In this document: positions 27,690 through 37,783 of the stretch, piece after piece
How the letters are laid out: the number at the start of each line of letters is the position of its first letter
Position numbering within the stretch: position 1 is the first letter of the stretch
From: Flavobacteriales bacterium
GTDB lineage: Bacteria; Bacteroidota; Bacteroidia; Flavobacteriales_D; Crocinitomicaceae
Direction: 5' to 3'
Length of the DNA: 44,422 nucleotides
Assembly (NCBI GenBank): GCA_947476955.1
Contig: CANJSS010000006.1
Coordinates: 1 to 44,422, forward strand
Program-made: the position numbers and the translations under genes
Notes under the pieces: model-generated
What the model saw: the letters and a program-made list of their open reading frames with translations, nothing else
What the model was told of the DNA's origin: nothing
The model's database searches: none

Positions 27690-27757
27690 TAAATATTTAA
27701 TATTTCCATTTTATGCAATGTTGGTATATTAATAAATTGTTAACTATTAAATATTTA
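27690..27757. repeat. two palindromes TAAATATTTA before the surface-protein operon
   Basis: Identical 10-bp palindromes stand at 27690-27699 and 27748-27757, 58 bp apart, about 30 and 90 bp before the GEVED gene. A -7-like TATATTAG follows at 27761-27768. The region is very AT-rich, so an operator role is only a possibility. Confidence 0.3.
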
Positions 27758-27786
27758 GTCTATATTAGCAAATCTATAAACGTGCT

Positions 27787-28920
27787 ATGAAAAATTATTA
27801 CCTTATTCTATTCTTGTTTTTTAATTCCTCATTGTTTTCACAATACTGCTCTACTGGAGGACCAACTTCAGGTGTTGACTCAAATGTTCAAACAGTAAGT
27901 TTAATCGGAGAAAGTGGAGCTATAAATTTTACCGGTTGTCCAGGAGTTATTGGAGTGCAAAACCTAACAAATTTAGGAACAACCCTAAACGCAGGAAGCA
28001 ACTACACAAGCCAGATAAAATTTGGAACATGCGGTGGAAATTATACCGGAGCAGGTCAAGCTTGGATTGATTTTGATCAAAGCGGCTCTTTTGATGCATC
28101 AGAATCTATTGGAACGTGGAGTGGAATTCCACCAGTTGCTACCTCCATTTTTAACTTTATTGTTCCGTTTGGAGCTCAAAATGGCATTACTAGAATGCGT
28201 GTAAATCAGCAGGAAGGCGGAACATTACCACTGAATCCTTGTGCTTCCTTTTCTTGGGGTTCCGTAATGGACTTTAGCATCACAATTACAAATGGTGTGG
28301 ATTGCAGCGGTTATATTGGCGATGACATTAACGATCCAATTGTAGTGTCAAGTTTGCCATATTCGAATACTGGAGATAATTCGTACTGTTATTCCAACCA
28401 AAACCCAGTTTATTCCTCTCCAGATGTTTATTACCGTCTTTTACCTAATCCATTAATGGAATCAATCTCTGTATCGCTATGCGGATCCCTTTTCGATACT
28501 TTTCTGAGTGTGATCGATGCAAACGGAAACATTTTAGCTTTCAATGACGATTCAGATGAATGTGGCTCTCAATCTTCTTTAACATTTAATACAAATGGAG
28601 TTGGAATTGCTTACATTATAGTTGAAGGTTGGGGAAGTCAAATGGGAAATTACTCCATTTTAATCGAAGGAAACTATCTGGCTGCTGAAGAATTAGAATT
28701 GCAAAATTTGGTTTTGTTTCCAAATCCAACAGCAGAATTTATTCAGTTGAGAAATATAACAGGTAAAATAGAACTATTTGATGCAAGCGGCACGGCACTA
28801 CTTTCCGTTTCTAATTACGCTGGTGAACAAATTGATTTGAAAAAATATTCCCGAGGCTTATACTTTGTGAAATTCGTGAAAAATCAAAAGCAATTTTCCG
28901 AAAAATTTATTTTAAACTAA
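27787..28920 (+). CDS. secreted GEVED-domain protein with T9SS sorting domain
   Basis: A 377-residue protein. Signal peptide 1-18 is followed by a GEVED domain (about 40-170; AWIDFDQSGSFDASESIG and MRVNQQEGG are typical), a PPC/Ig-like beta domain (about 178-295; DVYYRLLPNP, DTFLSVIDANGN, FNDDSDEC) and a type A T9SS C-terminal domain from about 305 (LVLFPNPTAEFIQLRN, ending KFILN). The calcium-binding-looking DFDQSGSFD loop lies in the GEVED part. The protein should cross the outer membrane by T9SS and be attached to or released from the surface. It is the first gene of a five-gene unit; its TAA shares its last A with the ATG of the next gene. The ligand is unknown. Confidence 0.85.
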   Translation: MKNYYLILFLFFNSSLFSQYCSTGGPTSGVDSNVQTVSLIGESGAINFTGCPGVIGVQNLTNLGTTLNAGSNYTSQIKFGTCGGNYTGAGQAWIDFDQSGSFDASESIGTWSGIPPVATSIFNFIVPFGAQNGITRMRVNQQEGGTLPLNPCASFSWGSVMDFSITITNGVDCSGYIGDDINDPIVVSSLPYSNTGDNSYCYSNQNPVYSSPDVYYRLLPNPLMESISVSLCGSLFDTFLSVIDANGNILAFNDDSDECGSQSSLTFNTNGVGIAYIIVEGWGSQMGNYSILIEGNYLAAEELELQNLVLFPNPTAEFIQLRNITGKIELFDASGTALLSVSNYAGEQIDLKKYSRGLYFVKFVKNQKQFSEKFILN

Positions 28921-30080
28921 TGAAAGTAAAGTACACTTTTCTACTGTTTCTTTTTCTCAATTGTTCCGTTTCACTTGCAAATACGTGGCAACAAAAAGCT
29001 AGTTTTGGGGGAATTGGAAGACATCGAGCAGCAGGAATATCTATTGGAAACAAAGGCTATATGGGCTTAGGGCATGTAAATGGCACAGGACAAGATATTT
29101 CTTATAAAGATTGGTGGCAATATGATCCTGCGTCTGACTCTTGGACTCAGAAAGCAAATTTTCCGGTAAGTGTGCATGGCGCTGTAACTTTTTCGACGGA
29201 TACGAAAGGATATGTTGGTGGCGGATCTTCGTTAAATGGGGAATTTTTTGAATACAATCCCCAAACGAACACATGGATTGCTGTGGCTAGTTGTCCCTTA
29301 AATGTTGGTGATGTGCAAGGTTTTTCTGTTCAAAACAAAGGATACGTATATCTTGGAAATCAACTTGCGGAGTTTGATCCATTGAGCAATAGTTGGACAA
29401 TAAAAGCACAATCACCAGTTTCCTATGGACAATGGACTTGCTCTTTTTCCACAGAATCTAGTGGTTTTGTGAAATCAGGGACTAACTTTTACGAATATAA
29501 ACCAGCAGTAAATCAATGGATGCAGCGCGCAACTTTTCCGGGATTAATGAGTAATGGAAGTTCTGCTTTTACGATGAATCAAAAAGGATATGTCACGTGC
29601 GGATATGTTGGTGGTTTGGCAAACGTAACGGATCAGGTTTGGGAATTCAATCCAGGAAATAACCAATGGAATATGGTAGCCGAATTTCCAGGAACAAAAA
29701 GGAGGTTTCCAGTTGCTTTTTCAATTAATAACAAAGGATATTTTGGAACTGGAACAAATGGCATTAATTTGAATGATTTCTGGCAATTTTATGAAAATCC
29801 GCTTTCACTTTCTGAACAGGAAATTGCAGCTATTCAGTTAAATGTATTTCCAAACCCAGCAACAGAATCCGTACAGTTTTCATTCGAAGGAATCAATTCC
29901 TCCCTTTTAACGGAATGTTCAATTCTTCTCTATTCATTAGATGGAAGAATACTAAAAGAAGAAAAAATAGAATCACAAAATCATATTTTAAAGCGCGGAA
30001 ATGAAAGAAATGGAATATATTATTATTCTATTGTACACCGTTCAAAGCAGCTAAAAACAGGGAAATTAATTTACTATTAA
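28920..30080 (+). CDS. secreted Kelch six-bladed propeller protein 1 with T9SS sorting domain
   Basis: A 386-residue protein with signal peptide 1-20. Six Kelch-like blades follow (about 21-300), each opening with a W-containing strand: TWQQKA, SWTQKA, TWIAVA, SWTIKA, QWMQRA and QWNMVA; most contain a KGY(V/F)xxG strand and an (W/F)E(Y/F)(N/D/K)P strand. The final NDFWQF strand after the last blade probably closes the ring with the N-terminal strand. The T9SS type A domain starts near 305 (LNVFPNPATESVQF, ending GKLIYY). Blades 3 and 4 are shorter than those of its two neighbours. Start and upstream stop overlap as TAATG. Such propellers usually bind protein or glycan; no catalytic site is evident. 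Confidence 0.85.
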   Translation: MKVKYTFLLFLFLNCSVSLANTWQQKASFGGIGRHRAAGISIGNKGYMGLGHVNGTGQDISYKDWWQYDPASDSWTQKANFPVSVHGAVTFSTDTKGYVGGGSSLNGEFFEYNPQTNTWIAVASCPLNVGDVQGFSVQNKGYVYLGNQLAEFDPLSNSWTIKAQSPVSYGQWTCSFSTESSGFVKSGTNFYEYKPAVNQWMQRATFPGLMSNGSSAFTMNQKGYVTCGYVGGLANVTDQVWEFNPGNNQWNMVAEFPGTKRRFPVAFSINNKGYFGTGTNGINLNDFWQFYENPLSLSEQEIAAIQLNVFPNPATESVQFSFEGINSSLLTECSILLYSLDGRILKEEKIESQNHILKRGNERNGIYYYSIVHRSKQLKTGKLIYY

Positions 30081-30081
30081 C

Positions 30082-31302
30082 ATGACAAAATTAGTTGCTT
30101 CAATTTTATTATTTTGTCCATTTGTAATCTTTGGTCAAACAGAAAATTTTTGGCTTAAAAAAAATGATTTTGGAGGTCTAAAGCGCGAGCGAGCGATTTC
30201 CTTTTCTATTGGCGATTACGGATATGTTGGAACGGGTGTAGATACTGGAGAAGTTGTTTTGAATGATCTTTGGCAATACGACGCCTCCAATGATTCTTGG
30301 ATGCAAAAAGCAAATTTACCCGGTTCCGTGCGAAGAGATGCAGTTGGTTTTTCGATCGGATCAAAAGGCTACGTAGGAACAGGAATTGACAGCTCAGAAT
30401 CTGTAGGTGCTTCTGTGTTGAAAGACTTTTGGGAATATGACCCTCAAACGAATACCTGGCTTCAAAAAGCAGACTTCCCCGGCGGTGGCGGATTGGGCAT
30501 TTATTTTTCTACTGGATTCAGTATAGATTCGAAAGGATATATCTGTTGTGGAAAAATTGGACCTTCCTTATATTCCAACGAACTTTGGGAATATAAGCCA
30601 AACATAGATCAATGGACACAGCGCACTAATTTCCCTGGTGGCCTGCGCTATCAACTTGCTTCATTTACTATTGAAAATCATGCATACGTAGGACTTGGTG
30701 CTACGCAGGATGTCTATAAAAAAGATTTTTGGAAATACAATCCTGGTTCAAATCAATGGTCTGCAATTGCCGATCTTCCTGGGAGTAATCGTGCCGAAGC
30801 ATGCAGTTTTACAATCGGTGATTTCGGATATGTTTGTCTTGGTTCCGATGGCGGTTTATTATCCGACCTTTGGGCCTATAATCCAACCGCAAATCAGTGG
30901 TCCATTCGGGCGCCATACGGAGGGAGTGAGCGCAAAAATGCAGTTTCTTTCGTCGTAAACAATAAGGCATATGTTGGAACCGGAAAAGGGTATTCTGGAA
31001 AAAAAGCAAGTATGCAGGAATACACGCCACATACCGTTTTGGATCTTGCTAATTTACATTCGGAATCGCTTCAAATTTATCCTAATCCAGCAAGTAGTTT
31101 TTTTACTATTGTTTCCGAGAATCCTTTGGTAGAGAAATTTGAATTACATACAACGGATGGCCGAAAAGTAAAAGAAATAGAATCTAATTCACTTCAAACG
31201 CAATCTATAAATTGTGCTGATTTAAATCCTGGAATTTATATTCTTGTTGCTTTGGACAATTCAAAATCAGTAGTAAAAACCAAACAAGTTATTTTATTGT
31301 AA
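30082..31302 (+). CDS. secreted Kelch six-bladed propeller protein 2 with T9SS sorting domain
   Basis: A 406-residue paralogue of its neighbours. Signal peptide 1-18 ends at FGQ. Six blades open with FWLKKN, SWMQKA, TWLQKA, QWTQRT, QWSAIA and QWSIRA, and five contain the KGYVGTG-type strand followed by (D/N)xWxY. The most regular of the three propellers, it fits the consensus PGxxRxxAVxFSIxxKGYVGTG closely. The T9SS type A domain begins near 330 (LQIYPNPASSFFTI, ending KQVILL). It begins one base after the previous stop (TAACATG). Function is unknown; similarity to the other two points to tandem duplication. Confidence 0.86.
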   Translation: MTKLVASILLFCPFVIFGQTENFWLKKNDFGGLKRERAISFSIGDYGYVGTGVDTGEVVLNDLWQYDASNDSWMQKANLPGSVRRDAVGFSIGSKGYVGTGIDSSESVGASVLKDFWEYDPQTNTWLQKADFPGGGGLGIYFSTGFSIDSKGYICCGKIGPSLYSNELWEYKPNIDQWTQRTNFPGGLRYQLASFTIENHAYVGLGATQDVYKKDFWKYNPGSNQWSAIADLPGSNRAEACSFTIGDFGYVCLGSDGGLLSDLWAYNPTANQWSIRAPYGGSERKNAVSFVVNNKAYVGTGKGYSGKKASMQEYTPHTVLDLANLHSESLQIYPNPASSFFTIVSENPLVEKFELHTTDGRKVKEIESNSLQTQSINCADLNPGIYILVALDNSKSVVKTKQVILL

Positions 31303-31303
31303 C

Positions 31304-32521
31304 ATGAAAAAAATTAGTCTTTCGGTAATTTTTCTTTTTGGGATTTTCCTTTTTTCTTTCGGACAAAATTTCTGGATTCAGAAAGATTCCGTCAATGGTT
31401 CAGGAAAAGGTAGTTGTTCAAATTTTATTTTATTTAATGAAGGATATATTCTCGGAGGTTTGGATGATTTTAGTTTCAAACGCAAGATGTATTCCTATTC
31501 TCCATTTCAAAACGATTGGGACAGTGAACTTTCCATCGGTGGACTAAATAATGATGGATTAGAACGGGCTTCGGCAAGTTCATTTTCAATTAACAACAAA
31601 GGATATCTTTGTCTTGGTCAAGGCTCTTCAAGTGCTTACTTGAATGATTTATGGGAATTCAACCCTGAAACGCAATCATGGACACAAAAAGCTGATTTTA
31701 TTGGAACAGCAAGAAAACAAGCTGTTTCTTTCTCCATAAATAATTTTGGTTACGTTGGAACCGGGCAAGATGCAACAGGTTTAAAAAAAGATTTTTATAA
31801 ATATGATCCTCTGTTAAATGTTTGGACACAGTTGAGTGATTTTGCTGGAACAGCTCGAAGACAAGCAGTTGGATTTTCCATGGATGGGAATGCATTTGTT
31901 GGAACGGGTGACGATGGTGTTTTGCAAAACGATTTTTGGATGTATGTTGGCTTAACAGATACATGGATTCAAAAAGCAAATTTTCCAGGAACACCACGAG
32001 CTGGAGCAACAGGTTGGGGAACATTTCCTACTGCCTACATTGCAACTGGAGAAGATGTTAATTTTGAATTTAAAAAGGATGTGTGGGAATATAATTATTT
32101 CCTGAATTCATGGGTTCAGGTCGCTGATTTAATGGGTCCTGCACGAAAAAATGCTGTTTCCTTTGCAATTGATGGTATTGGATATTTAGGAACAGGATAT
32201 AATGGCGTTTTCCTAGACGACTTTTATGCGTATTACGGAATTGTAGGTACAGAAGAAATTGAAAATAATTTTACCTCTACCATTTTTCCAAATCCTGCAA
32301 AAGAATTGGTATATGTGCAAATGGATCTTGAAAATATTTCCGATTTAACACTTCAATTATTTTCTATTACAGGAACAAACGTTACTTCTGCAATAACTTA
32401 TGTAATTAAGGAAAAAACGATGGAAGTAAATATTTCTAATTTGCAATCTGGAAATTATTATTACGAGCTGAAGAATCAGAAATCAACGCATAAGTCAACT
32501 GGAAAACTGATGATATTATAA
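31304..32521 (+). CDS. secreted Kelch six-bladed propeller protein 3 with T9SS sorting domain
   Basis: A 405-residue paralogue with signal peptide 1-20 ending SFGQ. Blades open with FWIQKD, DWDSEL, SWTQKA, VWTQLS, TWIQKA and SWVQVA. The first blade (NFILFNEGYILGG, MYSYSPFQ) is the most diverged; blades 3-5 share GTARxQAVxFSxxxxxxVGTG almost unchanged, which suggests recent internal duplication. The T9SS type A domain starts near 324 (STIFPNPAKELVYV, ending GKLMIL). It starts one base after the previous stop (TAACATG), and its own TAA overlaps the ATG of the lipoprotein gene (TAATG). Confidence 0.86.
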   Translation: MKKISLSVIFLFGIFLFSFGQNFWIQKDSVNGSGKGSCSNFILFNEGYILGGLDDFSFKRKMYSYSPFQNDWDSELSIGGLNNDGLERASASSFSINNKGYLCLGQGSSSAYLNDLWEFNPETQSWTQKADFIGTARKQAVSFSINNFGYVGTGQDATGLKKDFYKYDPLLNVWTQLSDFAGTARRQAVGFSMDGNAFVGTGDDGVLQNDFWMYVGLTDTWIQKANFPGTPRAGATGWGTFPTAYIATGEDVNFEFKKDVWEYNYFLNSWVQVADLMGPARKNAVSFAIDGIGYLGTGYNGVFLDDFYAYYGIVGTEEIENNFTSTIFPNPAKELVYVQMDLENISDLTLQLFSITGTNVTSAITYVIKEKTMEVNISNLQSGNYYYELKNQKSTHKSTGKLMIL

Positions 32522-32880
32522 TGAAAAAAACGTTTGTAATTCTTAGTATATTGGTTTTGTTTTCGTGCGAAAACAGTGAATCAAAAGAATCTTTAAACCC
32601 TTCTAATGACCGGGATGTTTATTCGGGAAAAGTTCAAGAACCTGCATATACGATGGAAGTTTTAGAGGATGTTGAATTCGGATGGGGGTACCAATTGTTT
32701 AAAGATGGAAAACTCATGATTGATCAAAAACACATTCCAGCAATTCAAGGCGAACAAGGATTCTCATCAAAAGAAAATGCAGAAATAACGGGCAATTATA
32801 TTTTAAAAAAAATCAAAAATAACGAATTCCCTCCTACTGTTTCGATAGAAGAATTAGACAGTTTGCACGTATTAGATTAA
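32521..32880 (+). CDS. small lipoprotein, DUF4907-like
   Basis: A 119-residue protein with a signal sequence and lipobox LFSC, giving Cys16 as the lipidation site, followed by an acidic/Ser linker (ENSESKES) that could act as a surface-export signal. The mature part is one compact domain: YTMEVLEDVEFGWGYQLFKDG, a DQKHIPAIQG strand with FSSKENAEITGNYILKKIK, and PPTVSIEELDSLHVLD. I recall this as DUF4907, but this is unverified. It is the last gene of the unit and the only one without a T9SS domain, so it may anchor or cap the secreted propellers. It is convergent with the NTF2-like gene. Confidence 0.7.
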   Translation: MKKTFVILSILVLFSCENSESKESLNPSNDRDVYSGKVQEPAYTMEVLEDVEFGWGYQLFKDGKLMIDQKHIPAIQGEQGFSSKENAEITGNYILKKIKNNEFPPTVSIEELDSLHVLD

Positions 32881-33440: not shown

Positions 33441-35102
33441 CTATTTAGCTTGCGCTTTAGATTTCTCCAAATCCAAACACATTTTTACAGCATTTTTAAC
33501 ATTTATAACACCACCTGTAACAGACAATGTTGCAAAATCAACCAACTCTTCCGATCCTGGTTTTACATGGTTTGTTCCTTTGTAAGATCGCGCAGACTTT
33601 AAAAGTATCGCTTTAATTTCATGCATCGTCAACGCTGGAAAATAACTCTGTAACATTGCAGCCACGCCAGATACCATTGGCGCTGCCATGGAAGTGCCCT
33701 GTAAACTTTTATAATCACTTTGTGGAACAGAATTATAAATTTCATTTCCTGGAGCAAAAACATCGACACTTTTTTGACCGTAATTTGAAAAAGGAGCTGC
33801 TAAATGTGCTTTATGGTCTCTTTTAACTTTTCCAAATGAAAAAAGCACCTGCCAAAAAGATGCTGCATCCATGGATTTAGAATTTCGAGTAGAGGCACCT
33901 ATTGTAAGAAATAAATCCAATTTCTCCGATTGAAAACTATACATTGAAGTTGGAAAGTTTGGATTAACATCGACATCTGCATTGTCGTTTCCCGACGCGT
34001 GTACAAGTAAAACGCCTTTTGAATCGGCGTATTTAAACGCTTCAAAGACTTCTTTTTGGTGCGGTGAATATCCTTTCCCGAATGACATATTGATAACTTT
34101 CGCACCATTATCCACTGCATAAATAACGGCTAAAGCAATATCTTTATCAAATTCATCACCATTTGGAACCGCTCTTAAAACCATCAGTGAAACATTTTCC
34201 GCGACGCCATCACCACCTAAATCATTTCCTCTGACTGCGCCAATAATTCCACCGACATGCGTTCCATGCATCGCATCAGGACCTTCGACATCTGGATTTC
34301 CGTATTTTCTATCCTTAAAATCATTTGGATTATCTCCAATAATTGCGCGGTCATCAAAATCAACATTCAGATTGTAATTAACCATCTGTTCAATTGATTT
34401 CTTTTGCTCAGCAATTACACCATCGGTTAATTCACCTGTAGCAATTGCCATTGCAAAGCTTTTCATCTGCGCCATCTGCTCGTCTGCGGGTTTCCACTTT
34501 TTTAAATCCTTTAGCGTATAATTAGGTTTTCCCATAGCGGATCCAACCATTGCAGGAACCTGACCAATCATCCTATTCACCATTTCCAATTGAGCAAGGT
34601 AAGAAGTGTAATTTTTCAATTCATCCTCCACTTCCTCCTTCACTTTCATATAAAGTTTATATTCAACTTTCTCACTTGCAGATAAAGTCTCTGGATCCAC
34701 TGATTCAAACTTTGCTGTCAACTCGCGCAAGATTCTAGTTTTCTCCAAACAGGCCTCGTTCATGTTTGCACCATTTGCATTGCCTAAAAAATTCCAACCA
34801 TGCACATCATCGATGTAGCCGTTTTTGTCGTCATCAATACCGTTATTTGCTTTCTCATCCGAATTAATCCAAATCTTTCCAGCAAGATCCTTGTGCTCAA
34901 TGTCCACACCGGAATCAATAACCGCAACAATTACAGTTGACGATTTCCGCTTTTTAAGCATTTTGTATGCCTTTTCGGTTTCCATACCGGGTCCTTTCCC
35001 GTTGTACCAATTTAATGTTTCCTTACTCTCTTGTGCTACACTTAAATTGGAGATTCCAATAGTCAGAATAATTAGACTTAGTTTCATGCTGTTTGTACTC
35101 AT
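33441..35102 (-). CDS. S8 family serine peptidase (subtilase), no T9SS domain
   Basis: A 553-residue exported subtilase. Signal peptide is about residues 6-24. The catalytic triad is Asp63 (AVIDSGVD), His279 (MHGTHVGG) and Ser471 (GTSMAAPMVSG), with oxyanion Asn372 (SGNDNAD). Asp and His are about 216 residues apart, against about 35-45 in subtilisin, because of a helical insertion (roughly 110-245) seen in a Bacteroidota S8 subgroup. There is no C-terminal sorting domain, so it is probably periplasmic or membrane-bound. The ATG at 35102 is chosen; a later ATG at 35087 (MKLSLIILT) is equally good, and a GTG at 35165 is unlikely. It is divergent from the second subtilase. Confidence 0.85.
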   Translation of the reverse strand: MSTNSMKLSLIILTIGISNLSVAQESKETLNWYNGKGPGMETEKAYKMLKKRKSSTVIVAVIDSGVDIEHKDLAGKIWINSDEKANNGIDDDKNGYIDDVHGWNFLGNANGANMNEACLEKTRILRELTAKFESVDPETLSASEKVEYKLYMKVKEEVEDELKNYTSYLAQLEMVNRMIGQVPAMVGSAMGKPNYTLKDLKKWKPADEQMAQMKSFAMAIATGELTDGVIAEQKKSIEQMVNYNLNVDFDDRAIIGDNPNDFKDRKYGNPDVEGPDAMHGTHVGGIIGAVRGNDLGGDGVAENVSLMVLRAVPNGDEFDKDIALAVIYAVDNGAKVINMSFGKGYSPHQKEVFEAFKYADSKGVLLVHASGNDNADVDVNPNFPTSMYSFQSEKLDLFLTIGASTRNSKSMDAASFWQVLFSFGKVKRDHKAHLAAPFSNYGQKSVDVFAPGNEIYNSVPQSDYKSLQGTSMAAPMVSGVAAMLQSYFPALTMHEIKAILLKSARSYKGTNHVKPGSEELVDFATLSVTGGVINVKNAVKMCLDLEKSKAQAK

Positions 35103-35167
35103 AAATTGAATTTGTAAATTATTTTTACTTAAGTTGCGAAAAATATAAATAAACTTTGGATTCACGC

Positions 35168-35197
35168 TTTATTTTTTTGAACTTTAAGATATATTTG
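35168..35197 (+). promoter_or_regulatory. candidate promoter of the T9SS subtilase
   Basis: TATATTTG at 35190-35197 fits TAnnTTTG; TTTA at 35168-35171 is a one-mismatch -33 element with an 18-base spacer. The ATG lies 27 bp past the -7 box. Confidence 0.4.
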
Positions 35198-35224
35198 CAT
35201 TTCATTGATCAACATTCATTACAA

Positions 35225-37783
35225 ATGGTTCGATTCATTATTTTACTCCTAGGCTTCATCTTATTGCATACACAAAGTGCAGTTTTTTGTCAACATATTA
35301 AATTTGGTTTTCAGCAACTATTAGATAAATCACCGCATTCAATCTCAACTTTTTGTGTTCCAAATGATTCCAAAACCATTACTTTACTTGAAAAAGAAGG
35401 TGTTAAAATAAAATATTATTCCGGGAATTATTTATTTATTTCATCCACAGCAAGTTGGATTCATGCGAAAACAAAATCAAACGAATTAGAAGATTTTTAT
35501 TTCGAATTTGCGCCTCCAATGGCATTAGCGGATACGGTTCGCTCAATGCATTCTGTAAATCAAGTTCACTTAGGATCCGATGGTTTATCTTCTCCCTACT
35601 TGGGGGAAAATATTATTATTGGTTACGTTGACCAAGGAATTGACTGGAATCATCCCGATTTTAAAGATGAAAATGGAGAAACACGCGTTTTAAGGTATTG
35701 GGATCAGACAACGAATTCTGGCGGAATAATTCCCCAACCGTACAATTATGGTATTGTTTGGGATAATAATTCAATTAACAGTGGGATTTGTACAAGTTTA
35801 GAAACTGTCACTGCACATGGAAGTACAGTAGCTGGAATGGGCTCTGGAAATGGTAAAGCAAATGGAACAAATACAGGTATTGCTCCAAAATCAAAAATAA
35901 TTATTGTGGAATCCAATTTTGATTTACCAAATTGGACTTTAACGATAGCCGATGCTTGTGATTATATCTTTAAAGTTGCAGATTCACTTGGTATGCCTGC
36001 AGTTATAAATTTAAGTCTTGGAACTTATCTGGGAAGCCACGATGGAAATGATCCTGCAGCAGAATATATGGAAGATCTTCTAACTGAAAAAGCGGGAAGA
36101 ATTATCGTTTGTGCTGCTGGAAATTCCGGTGCAAAAGGGAAATACCACGTGACTGGAGATGTAGATGTTGATACTTCATTTGTTTGGTTAATGAATAATC
36201 CTTCCTCCAATGCTGCATTTGGAGCGAACAAAGTGTTTTTTGATTTATGGTCGGATGGCAGCGATGCAACCTATAATTTTGCTTTGGGAGCAGATTTACC
36301 TTCTCCAACGTATGGCTTGCGCGGAAAAACTATTTTTAGACCTGCACAGTCCAATTTAAATACATTAATCTACGATACAATTTATTCTGATCTTGGATTT
36401 CGTATCGCGACACTGGAAATTTACACCGAATTGGAAAATGGAAATTACCACATGCAAGTATATTTTAGTTCAATTGACTCGACTTCTTACCTCTTTCGCT
36501 TCATGACAACTGGCTCTGGTAAATATGATTTATGGAGTGGCGCTTGGCTTGGACTGAACGATTTGGTAACTTCCCTTCCATCCTTTTCAGTGCTCCCTGA
36601 AATAACAAATTACCACCAACCCGATTTAAATCAATCGATTGTTTCATCTTGGAATTGTTCTGAAAAAATCATTTCTGTTGGAAACTTCCGAAATCGACTG
36701 GGCCATATAGATAATAATGGAAATCAATATTATCCGATTGGAGATATGACACAACCGGGGAAATTAAGTCCAAATTCTAGTAAGGGTCCAAATCGTCACG
36801 GTTTAATTAAACCAGATATTTCTGCTGCTGGAGATGTTTCTTTATCCGCAGGACCGATTGCTTTTTTAAATAATCCTGTTAATAATGCATCAATAGATTC
36901 AGGTGGTTGGCACGTTAGAAATGGAGGAACTTCAATGGCTTCTCCAGTTATCTCTGGAATCGCAGCGCTATTTCTCGAAAAATGCAGCAAGGCGAATTAT
37001 GCATATTTCAAAACTCAATTGCTAACAACTTCTTTTTCAGACAGTTATACCAGCTCTGTGCCTAACAATAGTTATGGATTCGGAAAAGCAAATGCATTAA
37101 CTATTTTACTACAGAACGAATTCAATACCAGTATAATTGGGAATGGTGCTTTTTGTTCCGATCCAATTCCTTTAACTGCGATTTCTGCTTCTCCAATTAT
37201 GACTGTTGATTGGTCAAATGGCTTTGTAGGAACAACCAATTACGTTCCTACAGTTGGCGAATATAGCGCAACCGTATACAATACAAACGGCTGTAGTTCA
37301 AACACAGACACTTTTACGGTGTATCAAACCAATCCATTGCCAATGCTTCCAATAATTCAAACAGGAAATACTTTAGCAACACTTTCTTTTACAACCTATC
37401 AATGGACGCTTAACGGGCAAGATATTCCTGGAGCGACAAGCTCCACACTCCAAATTTTCCCACCATACGGAACATATACTTGCTATAGCTATAATGATGA
37501 AGGATGTATTTCTGTTACAGCACCATTTTTGGTCACAGCGGGAACAGATATTCTTTCAATAAATGAAATTATCGTTTCACCTAATCCAACGAATGATAAA
37601 TTTTCTATTCTTTCGGATCACATAATCGAAAAAATTCAGTTATTTTCGGTTATCGGCGAAGAAATTTTTCCAGAGAAAATTGGAGTAAATTCCTACTCTA
37701 TATCTACCCTGCCACAAGGAATTTACCACTTAATTGTTTACATAGAAAAAGAAAAGTTTCATACCAAAATAATTAGAATGTAA
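35225..37783 (+). CDS. secreted S8 peptidase with Ig-like and T9SS sorting domains
   Basis: An 852-residue protein. Signal peptide 1-23 (ending FCQ) is followed by a short propeptide-like region and the subtilase domain: Asp136 (IGYVDQGID), His198 (TAHGSTVAG), oxyanion Asn300 (AAGNSG) and Ser570 (GGTSMASP). An insertion of about 250 residues between Asn and Ser (a beta-rich domain, about 310-480) is characteristic of Bacteroidota S8 enzymes. The C-terminal third has two Ig-like units (PLTAISASPIMTVDWSNG; YQWTLNGQDIPGATS) and a type A T9SS domain (IIVSPNPTNDKFSILS, ending KIIRM). The ATG at 35225 is preferred over a TTG 69 bp upstream, because of the signal peptide and promoter. It is likely secreted through T9SS. 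Confidence 0.9.
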   Translation: MVRFIILLLGFILLHTQSAVFCQHIKFGFQQLLDKSPHSISTFCVPNDSKTITLLEKEGVKIKYYSGNYLFISSTASWIHAKTKSNELEDFYFEFAPPMALADTVRSMHSVNQVHLGSDGLSSPYLGENIIIGYVDQGIDWNHPDFKDENGETRVLRYWDQTTNSGGIIPQPYNYGIVWDNNSINSGICTSLETVTAHGSTVAGMGSGNGKANGTNTGIAPKSKIIIVESNFDLPNWTLTIADACDYIFKVADSLGMPAVINLSLGTYLGSHDGNDPAAEYMEDLLTEKAGRIIVCAAGNSGAKGKYHVTGDVDVDTSFVWLMNNPSSNAAFGANKVFFDLWSDGSDATYNFALGADLPSPTYGLRGKTIFRPAQSNLNTLIYDTIYSDLGFRIATLEIYTELENGNYHMQVYFSSIDSTSYLFRFMTTGSGKYDLWSGAWLGLNDLVTSLPSFSVLPEITNYHQPDLNQSIVSSWNCSEKIISVGNFRNRLGHIDNNGNQYYPIGDMTQPGKLSPNSSKGPNRHGLIKPDISAAGDVSLSAGPIAFLNNPVNNASIDSGGWHVRNGGTSMASPVISGIAALFLEKCSKANYAYFKTQLLTTSFSDSYTSSVPNNSYGFGKANALTILLQNEFNTSIIGNGAFCSDPIPLTAISASPIMTVDWSNGFVGTTNYVPTVGEYSATVYNTNGCSSNTDTFTVYQTNPLPMLPIIQTGNTLATLSFTTYQWTLNGQDIPGATSSTLQIFPPYGTYTCYSYNDEGCISVTAPFLVTAGTDILSINEIIVSPNPTNDKFSILSDHIIEKIQLFSVIGEEIFPEKIGVNSYSISTLPQGIYHLIVYIEKEKFHTKIIRM

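Follow-up and report, generated by a model that had tools for sequence, protein, structure and literature searches.

In a bacterium of the Crocinitomicaceae (Flavobacteriales), five adjoining genes encode a GEVED-domain protein, three Kelch propellers and a small DUF4907 lipoprotein, and their order is conserved in related genomes. We propose that this operon builds an assembly at the surface of the outer membrane, in which propellers delivered by the type IX secretion system (T9SS) would meet a lipoprotein partner, and that it stems from a module that stands elsewhere in the phylum beside genes of the BamG2/BamH2 type. We put the probability of this reading at about one half.

The operon and its conservation in the order

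The window, i. e. the whole stretch of 44,422 nucleotides that was analysed, contains the following features:

27737..27768, + strand: possible Bacteroidota-type promoter, weak; TTG-N21-TAnnTTnG, 18 bases to the first ATG
27787..28920, + strand: GEVED protein, 377 aa; N-terminal signal, GEVED domain at residues 91-166, T9SS type A tail at residues 310-376, i. e. 28714-28911
28920..30080, + strand: K1, 386 aa; six-bladed Kelch propeller at about residues 19-294, then a T9SS type A tail
30082..31302, + strand: K2, 406 aa; Kelch propeller and T9SS type A tail (Pfam/NCBIfam matches)
31304..32521, + strand: K3, 405 aa; Kelch propeller and T9SS type A tail (Pfam/NCBIfam matches)
32521..32880, + strand: DUF4907 lipoprotein, 119 aa; PF16250 with an E-value of 4.8e-20, lipobox with Cys16

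An earlier note on this DNA, made from the letters alone, had described five genes on one strand without gaps. The five open reading frames were confirmed, and their junctions measure -1, +1, +1 and -1 bp from 5' to 3'. The families that the note had named, i. e. a GEVED/T9SS protein, three Kelch/T9SS proteins and a lipoprotein, were likewise recovered by Pfam and NCBIfam matches and by the lipobox. The promoter candidate owes its place in the list to its position only, since the motif, which we take to be the consensus of the Bacteroidota type, occurs three times across the window as compared to 3.6 occurrences expected by chance. No terminator was found on the plus strand between 27400 and 33500. 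The four flanking genes that were scanned encode an aminotransferase class V protein, a SnoaL-like protein and two subtilases; only the aminotransferase gene recurs near the set, in one of 35 relatives (L068).

Of the 199 genomes of the taxonomic order, 36 contain the DUF4907 family (PF16250), with a single match in each. Within the genus it is present in 20 of 26 genomes; among the 14 with a completeness of 90% or more and a contamination of 5% or less, 13 have it. A looser profile revealed a second DUF4907-like open reading frame in L048, in a genome for which PF16250 gives one match. Around the 36 loci of the order (the window and 35 others), a Kelch gene lies within 7 kb in 35 and a GEVED gene in 30; in G011, DUF4907 is on a different contig from the Kelch genes. 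Moreover, a scan of a one-genome-per-species collection with a K1 alignment gave 120 confirmed loci, of which 80 were kept; 56 of the latter had enough flanking sequence upstream as well as downstream. In 49 of these 56 loci, the arrangement GEVED-(extra Kelch)-K1-K2-K3-DUF4907 is intact, with the extra Kelch gene in 24; it fails in L115, L117, L132, L154, L180, L182 and L184. When only one side is considered, K2, K3 and DUF4907 follow in order in 53/61 loci with room downstream, and GEVED, or one more Kelch gene and then GEVED, precedes K1 in 68/72 loci with room upstream. The scanned loci are mostly labelled Crocinitomicaceae, Fluviicola, other Flavobacteriales or Bacteroidota metagenome-assembled genomes, with few other groups, and L105-L184 seem partly to overlap L038-L072, so that the two sets of loci are not independent. 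The genes do not scatter among relatives, and the set looks co-transcribed with a conserved gene order. This agrees with the earlier proposal of a surface set whose genes are expressed together.

K1 and DUF4907 also occur together at the level of genomes. A protein of K1 grade was found in none of the 21 DUF4907-negative genomes searched (best score 185 bits), a sample of 20 genomes of the family that was not drawn at random (with one genome entered twice), plus G044 from another family. All three DUF4907-positive genomes searched contain one, with at least 354 bits, even though the copy of G011 groups with the extra Kelch protein K0 in the tree (see below).

Genes for T9SS cargo are usually scattered. 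In the host genome (2.70 Mb), 90 matches to T9SS tails are spread across many contigs, and a search with the K2 propeller matched K1, K2 and K3 only. The operon resembles the type A cargo of the Bacteroidota in that four of its five proteins carry a C-terminal type A sorting domain; it differs from the usual cargo by a gene order that is fixed across genera and that closes in a lipoprotein.

Propellers, lipoprotein and export signals

The predicted structure of K1 is a six-bladed propeller (mean pLDDT 92) that begins at about residue 19-24 and is followed by the T9SS tail. Of the three six-bladed Kelch proteins announced earlier, K1 is thus backed by a model; K2 and K3 would have six blades as well, judging from homology. 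The K1 model shares its fold with the Kelch domains of Keap1, NS1-BP and the KLHL family (among the best 50 matches, Z 31-34, rmsd 1.6-2.3 and 14-21% identity), but the propellers of the operon are bacterial, predicted to be secreted, and devoid of partner domains such as BTB.

The residues that are conserved in the alignments differ between the propeller series. In K1, the invariants over 53 sequences include R34, H35, R36, H52, N54, D64, R261, T279, N283 and D286, and the series conserves the motifs RHR, GxGHxN and TxGxN; the Arg that opens one of its repeats lines up with the recurrent Arg in the repeats of a designed Kelch protein. In K3, an Arg opens five of the repeats and is kept in at least 95% of 35 relatives. 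Two unrooted trees, with SH-aLRT as the sole support value, order these proteins by their place in the operon. Among 141 Kelch proteins, all 35 K3 proteins (adjoining DUF4907) form a single clade, and so do all 35 K2 proteins (second place), each with a support of 100. The other tree has 90 rows. Here, a single clade (100) unites 15 of the 17 proteins from the third place (K1), and most of those from the fourth place make up another, K0, the extra Kelch protein (94); the two remaining third-place rows group with K0, and two rows, L052_p4 and L062_p4, are remote from the rest. Since K2 and K3 each make up one clade by operon position in 35 genomes, they are old, specialised paralogues. By these phylogenies, the Kelch genes seem to have diverged before the genera concerned and to have retained their place and character since. 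The paralogues are orthologous series of old age that differ in their conserved residues, in line with the earlier suggestion that their specificity can differ. Recent duplication as the origin of K1-K3 was ruled out, as the orthologues of K2 and K3 fall into separate clades.

The propellers might instead be enzymes, i. e. secreted mutarotases or epimerases of the NanM type or oxidases resembling galactose oxidase. In favour of this, K1 has invariant His, Arg and Asp residues, and the Pfam NANM model is passed by K1 (50.7) and K2 (72.8 against 45 bits), whereas K3 fails at 38.4. The best scores with the NanM-type models of NCBIfam, however, stay far below the cut-offs (77.8 against 256 for TIGR03547, 76.4 against 416 for NF010730, and 63.5 against 243 for a third model), and a single reaction does not call for several different propellers in a fixed order. 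We therefore regard enzymatic activity as very improbable. The specific assignment to NanM or another mutarotase was rejected because the family cut-offs of NCBIfam are not reached, and matches to galactose oxidase are limited to the short repeat models named "galactose oxidase, central domain".

The lipoprotein that closes the operon belongs to the DUF4907 family, an assignment that the earlier note had missed along with the occurrence of the Kelch-DUF4907 pair in several families of the phylum. In its predicted structure, three strands and two helices make up a compact domain at the C-terminus, with a block of pLDDT of at least 95 from residue 41. A Foldseek comparison of the model with the PDB gave no match at an E-value of 0.001 or better (best 0.81), and a search of the PDB with the sequence gave nothing better than 0.23. 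The GEVED protein matched solved structures with its tail only, and weakly (Endonuclease I, E-value 0.031). Surface lipoproteins have been recognised by a lipobox together with two or more acidic residues among the six that follow the Cys (PMC12578637). The DUF4907 protein of the window has such a signal, as Cys16 is followed by ENSESK. Among the loci of the K1 scan, 59 of 60 DUF4907 proteins have a lipobox and 22 of 60 the acidic export signal; outside the order of the host, a recognisable lipobox is present in 15/29 and the acidic signal in 1/29. These counts of lipobox and acidic signal make an outward-facing position of DUF4907 uncertain.

The GEVED protein, K1, K2 and K3 all exceed the TIGR04183 cut-off for the type A sorting domain. 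The tail of K1 scores 29.4 against 23 bits with this model and 26 against 27 bits with Pfam, i. e. one bit under the cut-off, and all of the 53 K1 sequences match PF18962 at E-values up to 0.001. Within the order, a T9SS-like tail is present in 108 of 113 Kelch proteins, and the acidic signal is absent from all of them. Outside the order, where 28 of 30 Kelch proteins (L080 and the 738-aa protein of L099 were omitted) and 29 of 30 DUF4907 proteins entered the analysis, 25/28 Kelch proteins have a lipobox, 18/28 have at least two acidic residues after the Cys, and a T9SS-like tail occurs in 0/28. The rules for both lipobox and tail are simple patterns: The lipobox pattern also fires in 22 of the 113 Kelch proteins of the order, including K1 of the window, and in 35 of 77 K1 proteins, never together with the acidic signal, and we take these calls as noise. 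Export by the T9SS and export of surface lipoproteins both end at the cell surface.

The Kelch-DUF4907 module elsewhere and the BAM canopy

In the phylum, PF16250 is present in 32 of 392 genomes, again with a single match per positive genome. The host genome and G008 are counted with the order, and the remaining 30 loci come from several families; in every one of them, a Kelch gene adjoins DUF4907. Outside the order of the host, this pair lies mostly beside paralogues of BamG and BamH and often beside a two-component pair, an association that the earlier note had likewise missed. Within 7 kb, a DUF4270 gene is found in 27 of the 30 loci (absent nearby in three), a BamG-like protein of about 411 residues in 25, both BamG/BamH paralogues in 25, and a LytS-type kinase together with a LytTR regulator in 22 (pair incomplete in eight). 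The loci are usually divergent. L087, L094 and L100 are arranged otherwise with partners from the same set. This favours a functional tie over a position that was simply inherited.

The protein of about 411 residues matches BamG of F. johnsoniae (9n2d, E-value 7.7e-33) as well as its counterparts from B. thetaiotaomicron and P. gingivalis. The linked DUF4270 protein that was scanned is a member of PF14092, the Pfam family of BamH. A single linked sequence had no match among solved structures at an E-value of 1 or better, but when 15 linked copies were combined in a profile with the copy of the host genome, BamH was matched at 3e-10. The PF14092 copy of G418 that is not linked to Kelch is BamH itself (9n2d, E-value 3e-209), and the Kelch-linked copy is thus a paralogue. 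A second DUF4270 gene is present in 21 of 30 DUF4907-positive genomes (one only in the other nine) as compared to 0 of 19 negative genomes, a sample that was not drawn at random. We refer to the linked genes as putatively of the BamG2/BamH2 type by family and profile match.

BamG2 and BamH2 themselves were reported as homologues of BamG and BamH in two 2025 studies on the BAM complex, which found no appreciable expression in rich medium or did not detect them and leave their role open. BamG2/H2 of F. johnsoniae showed no appreciable expression in rich medium, and the B. thetaiotaomicron study argues against a rescue of the bamH deletion by a BamG2H2 complex. BT1786 is given there as BamH2, and a published expression table lists BT1785-86 as "hypothetical protein, DUF4270 family protein". 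In addition, BamI of the B. thetaiotaomicron complex is described as a surface lipoprotein with a six-bladed propeller that contacts BamH (PMC12578637).

The canopy of BamG, BamH and BamI in F. johnsoniae and B. thetaiotaomicron is a surface-side assembly, as we propose for the operon, and paralogues of its BamG and BamH are encoded with relatives of the module in the window. The operon differs from it in having no BAM gene within 7 kb, three propellers, and T9SS tails on these propellers. Moreover, DUF4907 and GEVED proteins are not among the BAM subunits named in the available text of both studies. BamI consists of an N-terminal Ig-like domain and a C-terminal propeller; the K1 model lacks the Ig-like domain and has a T9SS tail, so that the canopy reading, which draws on BamI, builds on a likeness rather than on membership. 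In the order of the host, DUF4270, BamG-like, histidine kinase and response regulator genes are found within 7 kb in none of the 36 loci (a few of them shortened by contig ends), hence encoding with BamG/BamH paralogues is seen in 0/36. Exactly one DUF4270 copy is present in each of the 37 genomes of the order that were searched, and the relatives of BamH and BamG in the host genome lie on contigs other than that of the operon. With one DUF4270 gene in 37/37 genomes and none near the operon, any role in BAM would here have to involve the ordinary BamG and BamH.

It is tempting to speculate that Kelch and DUF4907 proteins have so far escaped notice as subunits of a second BAM canopy, which would be regulated and built on BamG2/BamH2 across much of the phylum, and that this canopy was rebuilt in the family of the host with three or four T9SS-delivered propellers that either dock on the ordinary BamG and BamH or stand alone. 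We consider this extended reading doubtful. The word "kelch" is missing from the main text of both BAM studies. In the open literature, a scope that leaves aside the figures and supplements of the BAM studies, the gene map included, no paper was found that ties Kelch or DUF4907 to BAM. Searches of the open literature likewise yielded nothing on the module or on its association with BamG/BamH paralogues, on DUF4907, on Kelch in Flavobacterium T9SS, in F. johnsoniae lipoproteins or in the Crocinitomicaceae, or on surface export of lipoproteins in Bacteroidota since 2023. As far as their listing shows, the papers on Kelch proteins and type IX secretion are unrelated; judged by titles and the openings of abstracts, no Kelch lipoprotein or outer-membrane operon in Bacteroidetes was found.

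The lack of BAM genes within 7 kb in the 36 loci of the order, the T9SS tails and the different conserved residues of each propeller would all suit independent surface lectins or adhesins for adhesion or glycan capture that are merely co-expressed, with DUF4907 as a helper in export or folding and without any connection to BAM in this family. Such loose adhesins would need neither the conserved gene order nor the old orthologous series nor the co-occurrence with DUF4907, and the link to BamG2/BamH2-type genes elsewhere would call for another reason. We judge this explanation to be rather unlikely. A signalling receptor has also to be considered: Kelch and DUF4907 would bind a ligand outside the cell and inform LytS/LytTR, with this pair being encoded elsewhere or lost in the family of the host. 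The kinase and regulator within 7 kb of 22/30 phylum loci, where the junctions in L087 measure -4 bp, speak for such a role; yet the pair is incomplete in 8/30 of these loci and was not seen in the 36 loci of the order, and we regard a receptor as improbable.

Proposed function of the operon

According to the surface assembly that we favour, three specialised Kelch propellers and the GEVED protein, all with recognisable T9SS tails, would be exported via the T9SS and their tails cleaved. DUF4907 may anchor or seat the delivered propellers, a role suggested by the constant pairing of the genes, and the propellers may serve as binding modules for ligands, each with its own conserved residues. The operon would be a derived form of the Kelch-DUF4907 module that recurs in several families of the phylum. 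Elsewhere, the module has mostly one Kelch protein that resembles a surface lipoprotein and is encoded beside BamG2/BamH2-type genes and often LytS/LytTR, and there it probably contributes to a canopy of an alternative or conditional kind. In the order of the host, the Kelch genes appear to have multiplied and to have acquired a T9SS tail, and no second DUF4270 gene was found. Gene pairing and order, domains, tails, lipobox and paralogy are observed, and from these we infer the contact between the partners, their position at the surface, the binding of ligands and the direction in which the module evolved.

The operon offers a natural case of a protein family that has apparently switched between lipoprotein and T9SS export. 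For the BamG2/BamH2-type genes, the genomic link names candidate partners, i. e. the Kelch lipoprotein, DUF4907 and the LytS/LytTR pair, and it opens a route to finding the condition that switches these genes on. If the canopy reading is true, one secretion system would supply parts to a machine that builds the outer membrane. In the family of the host, the old and specialised propellers belong to a surface operon that is conserved.

Subtilase genes beyond the window operon

Shortly past the operon lie two divergent subtilase genes (window 33441-37783), one of which encodes a T9SS tail; neither was seen at that place in the 35 order-level relatives.

Kelch genes without a neighbouring DUF4907 gene

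Genome G136, in which PF16250 (DUF4907) has no match, encodes a Kelch protein (L185:8693-9895) one gene away from its only DUF4270 gene, which is of the BamH type. In genome G011, relatives of K2, K3 and K0, the additional Kelch protein of some relatives, are found together on one contig (L186:4682-8400), and the DUF4907 gene is located on a separate contig (locus L048).

Flavobacteriaceae-type loci of family f17

One such locus (L079:7760-19501) holds Kelch-DUF4907 and BamG/BamH-paralogue genes. These are adjoined by genes that, judging from their sequences, we take to be murI, two skp/ompH genes and bamA.

In many loci of this family, the Kelch gene is directly preceded by a DUF6268 gene, as in L079:

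L079:11148-11990, DUF6268 protein (PF19783), directly ahead of the Kelch gene

It is possible that the DUF6268 protein is a further member of the Kelch-DUF4907 module.
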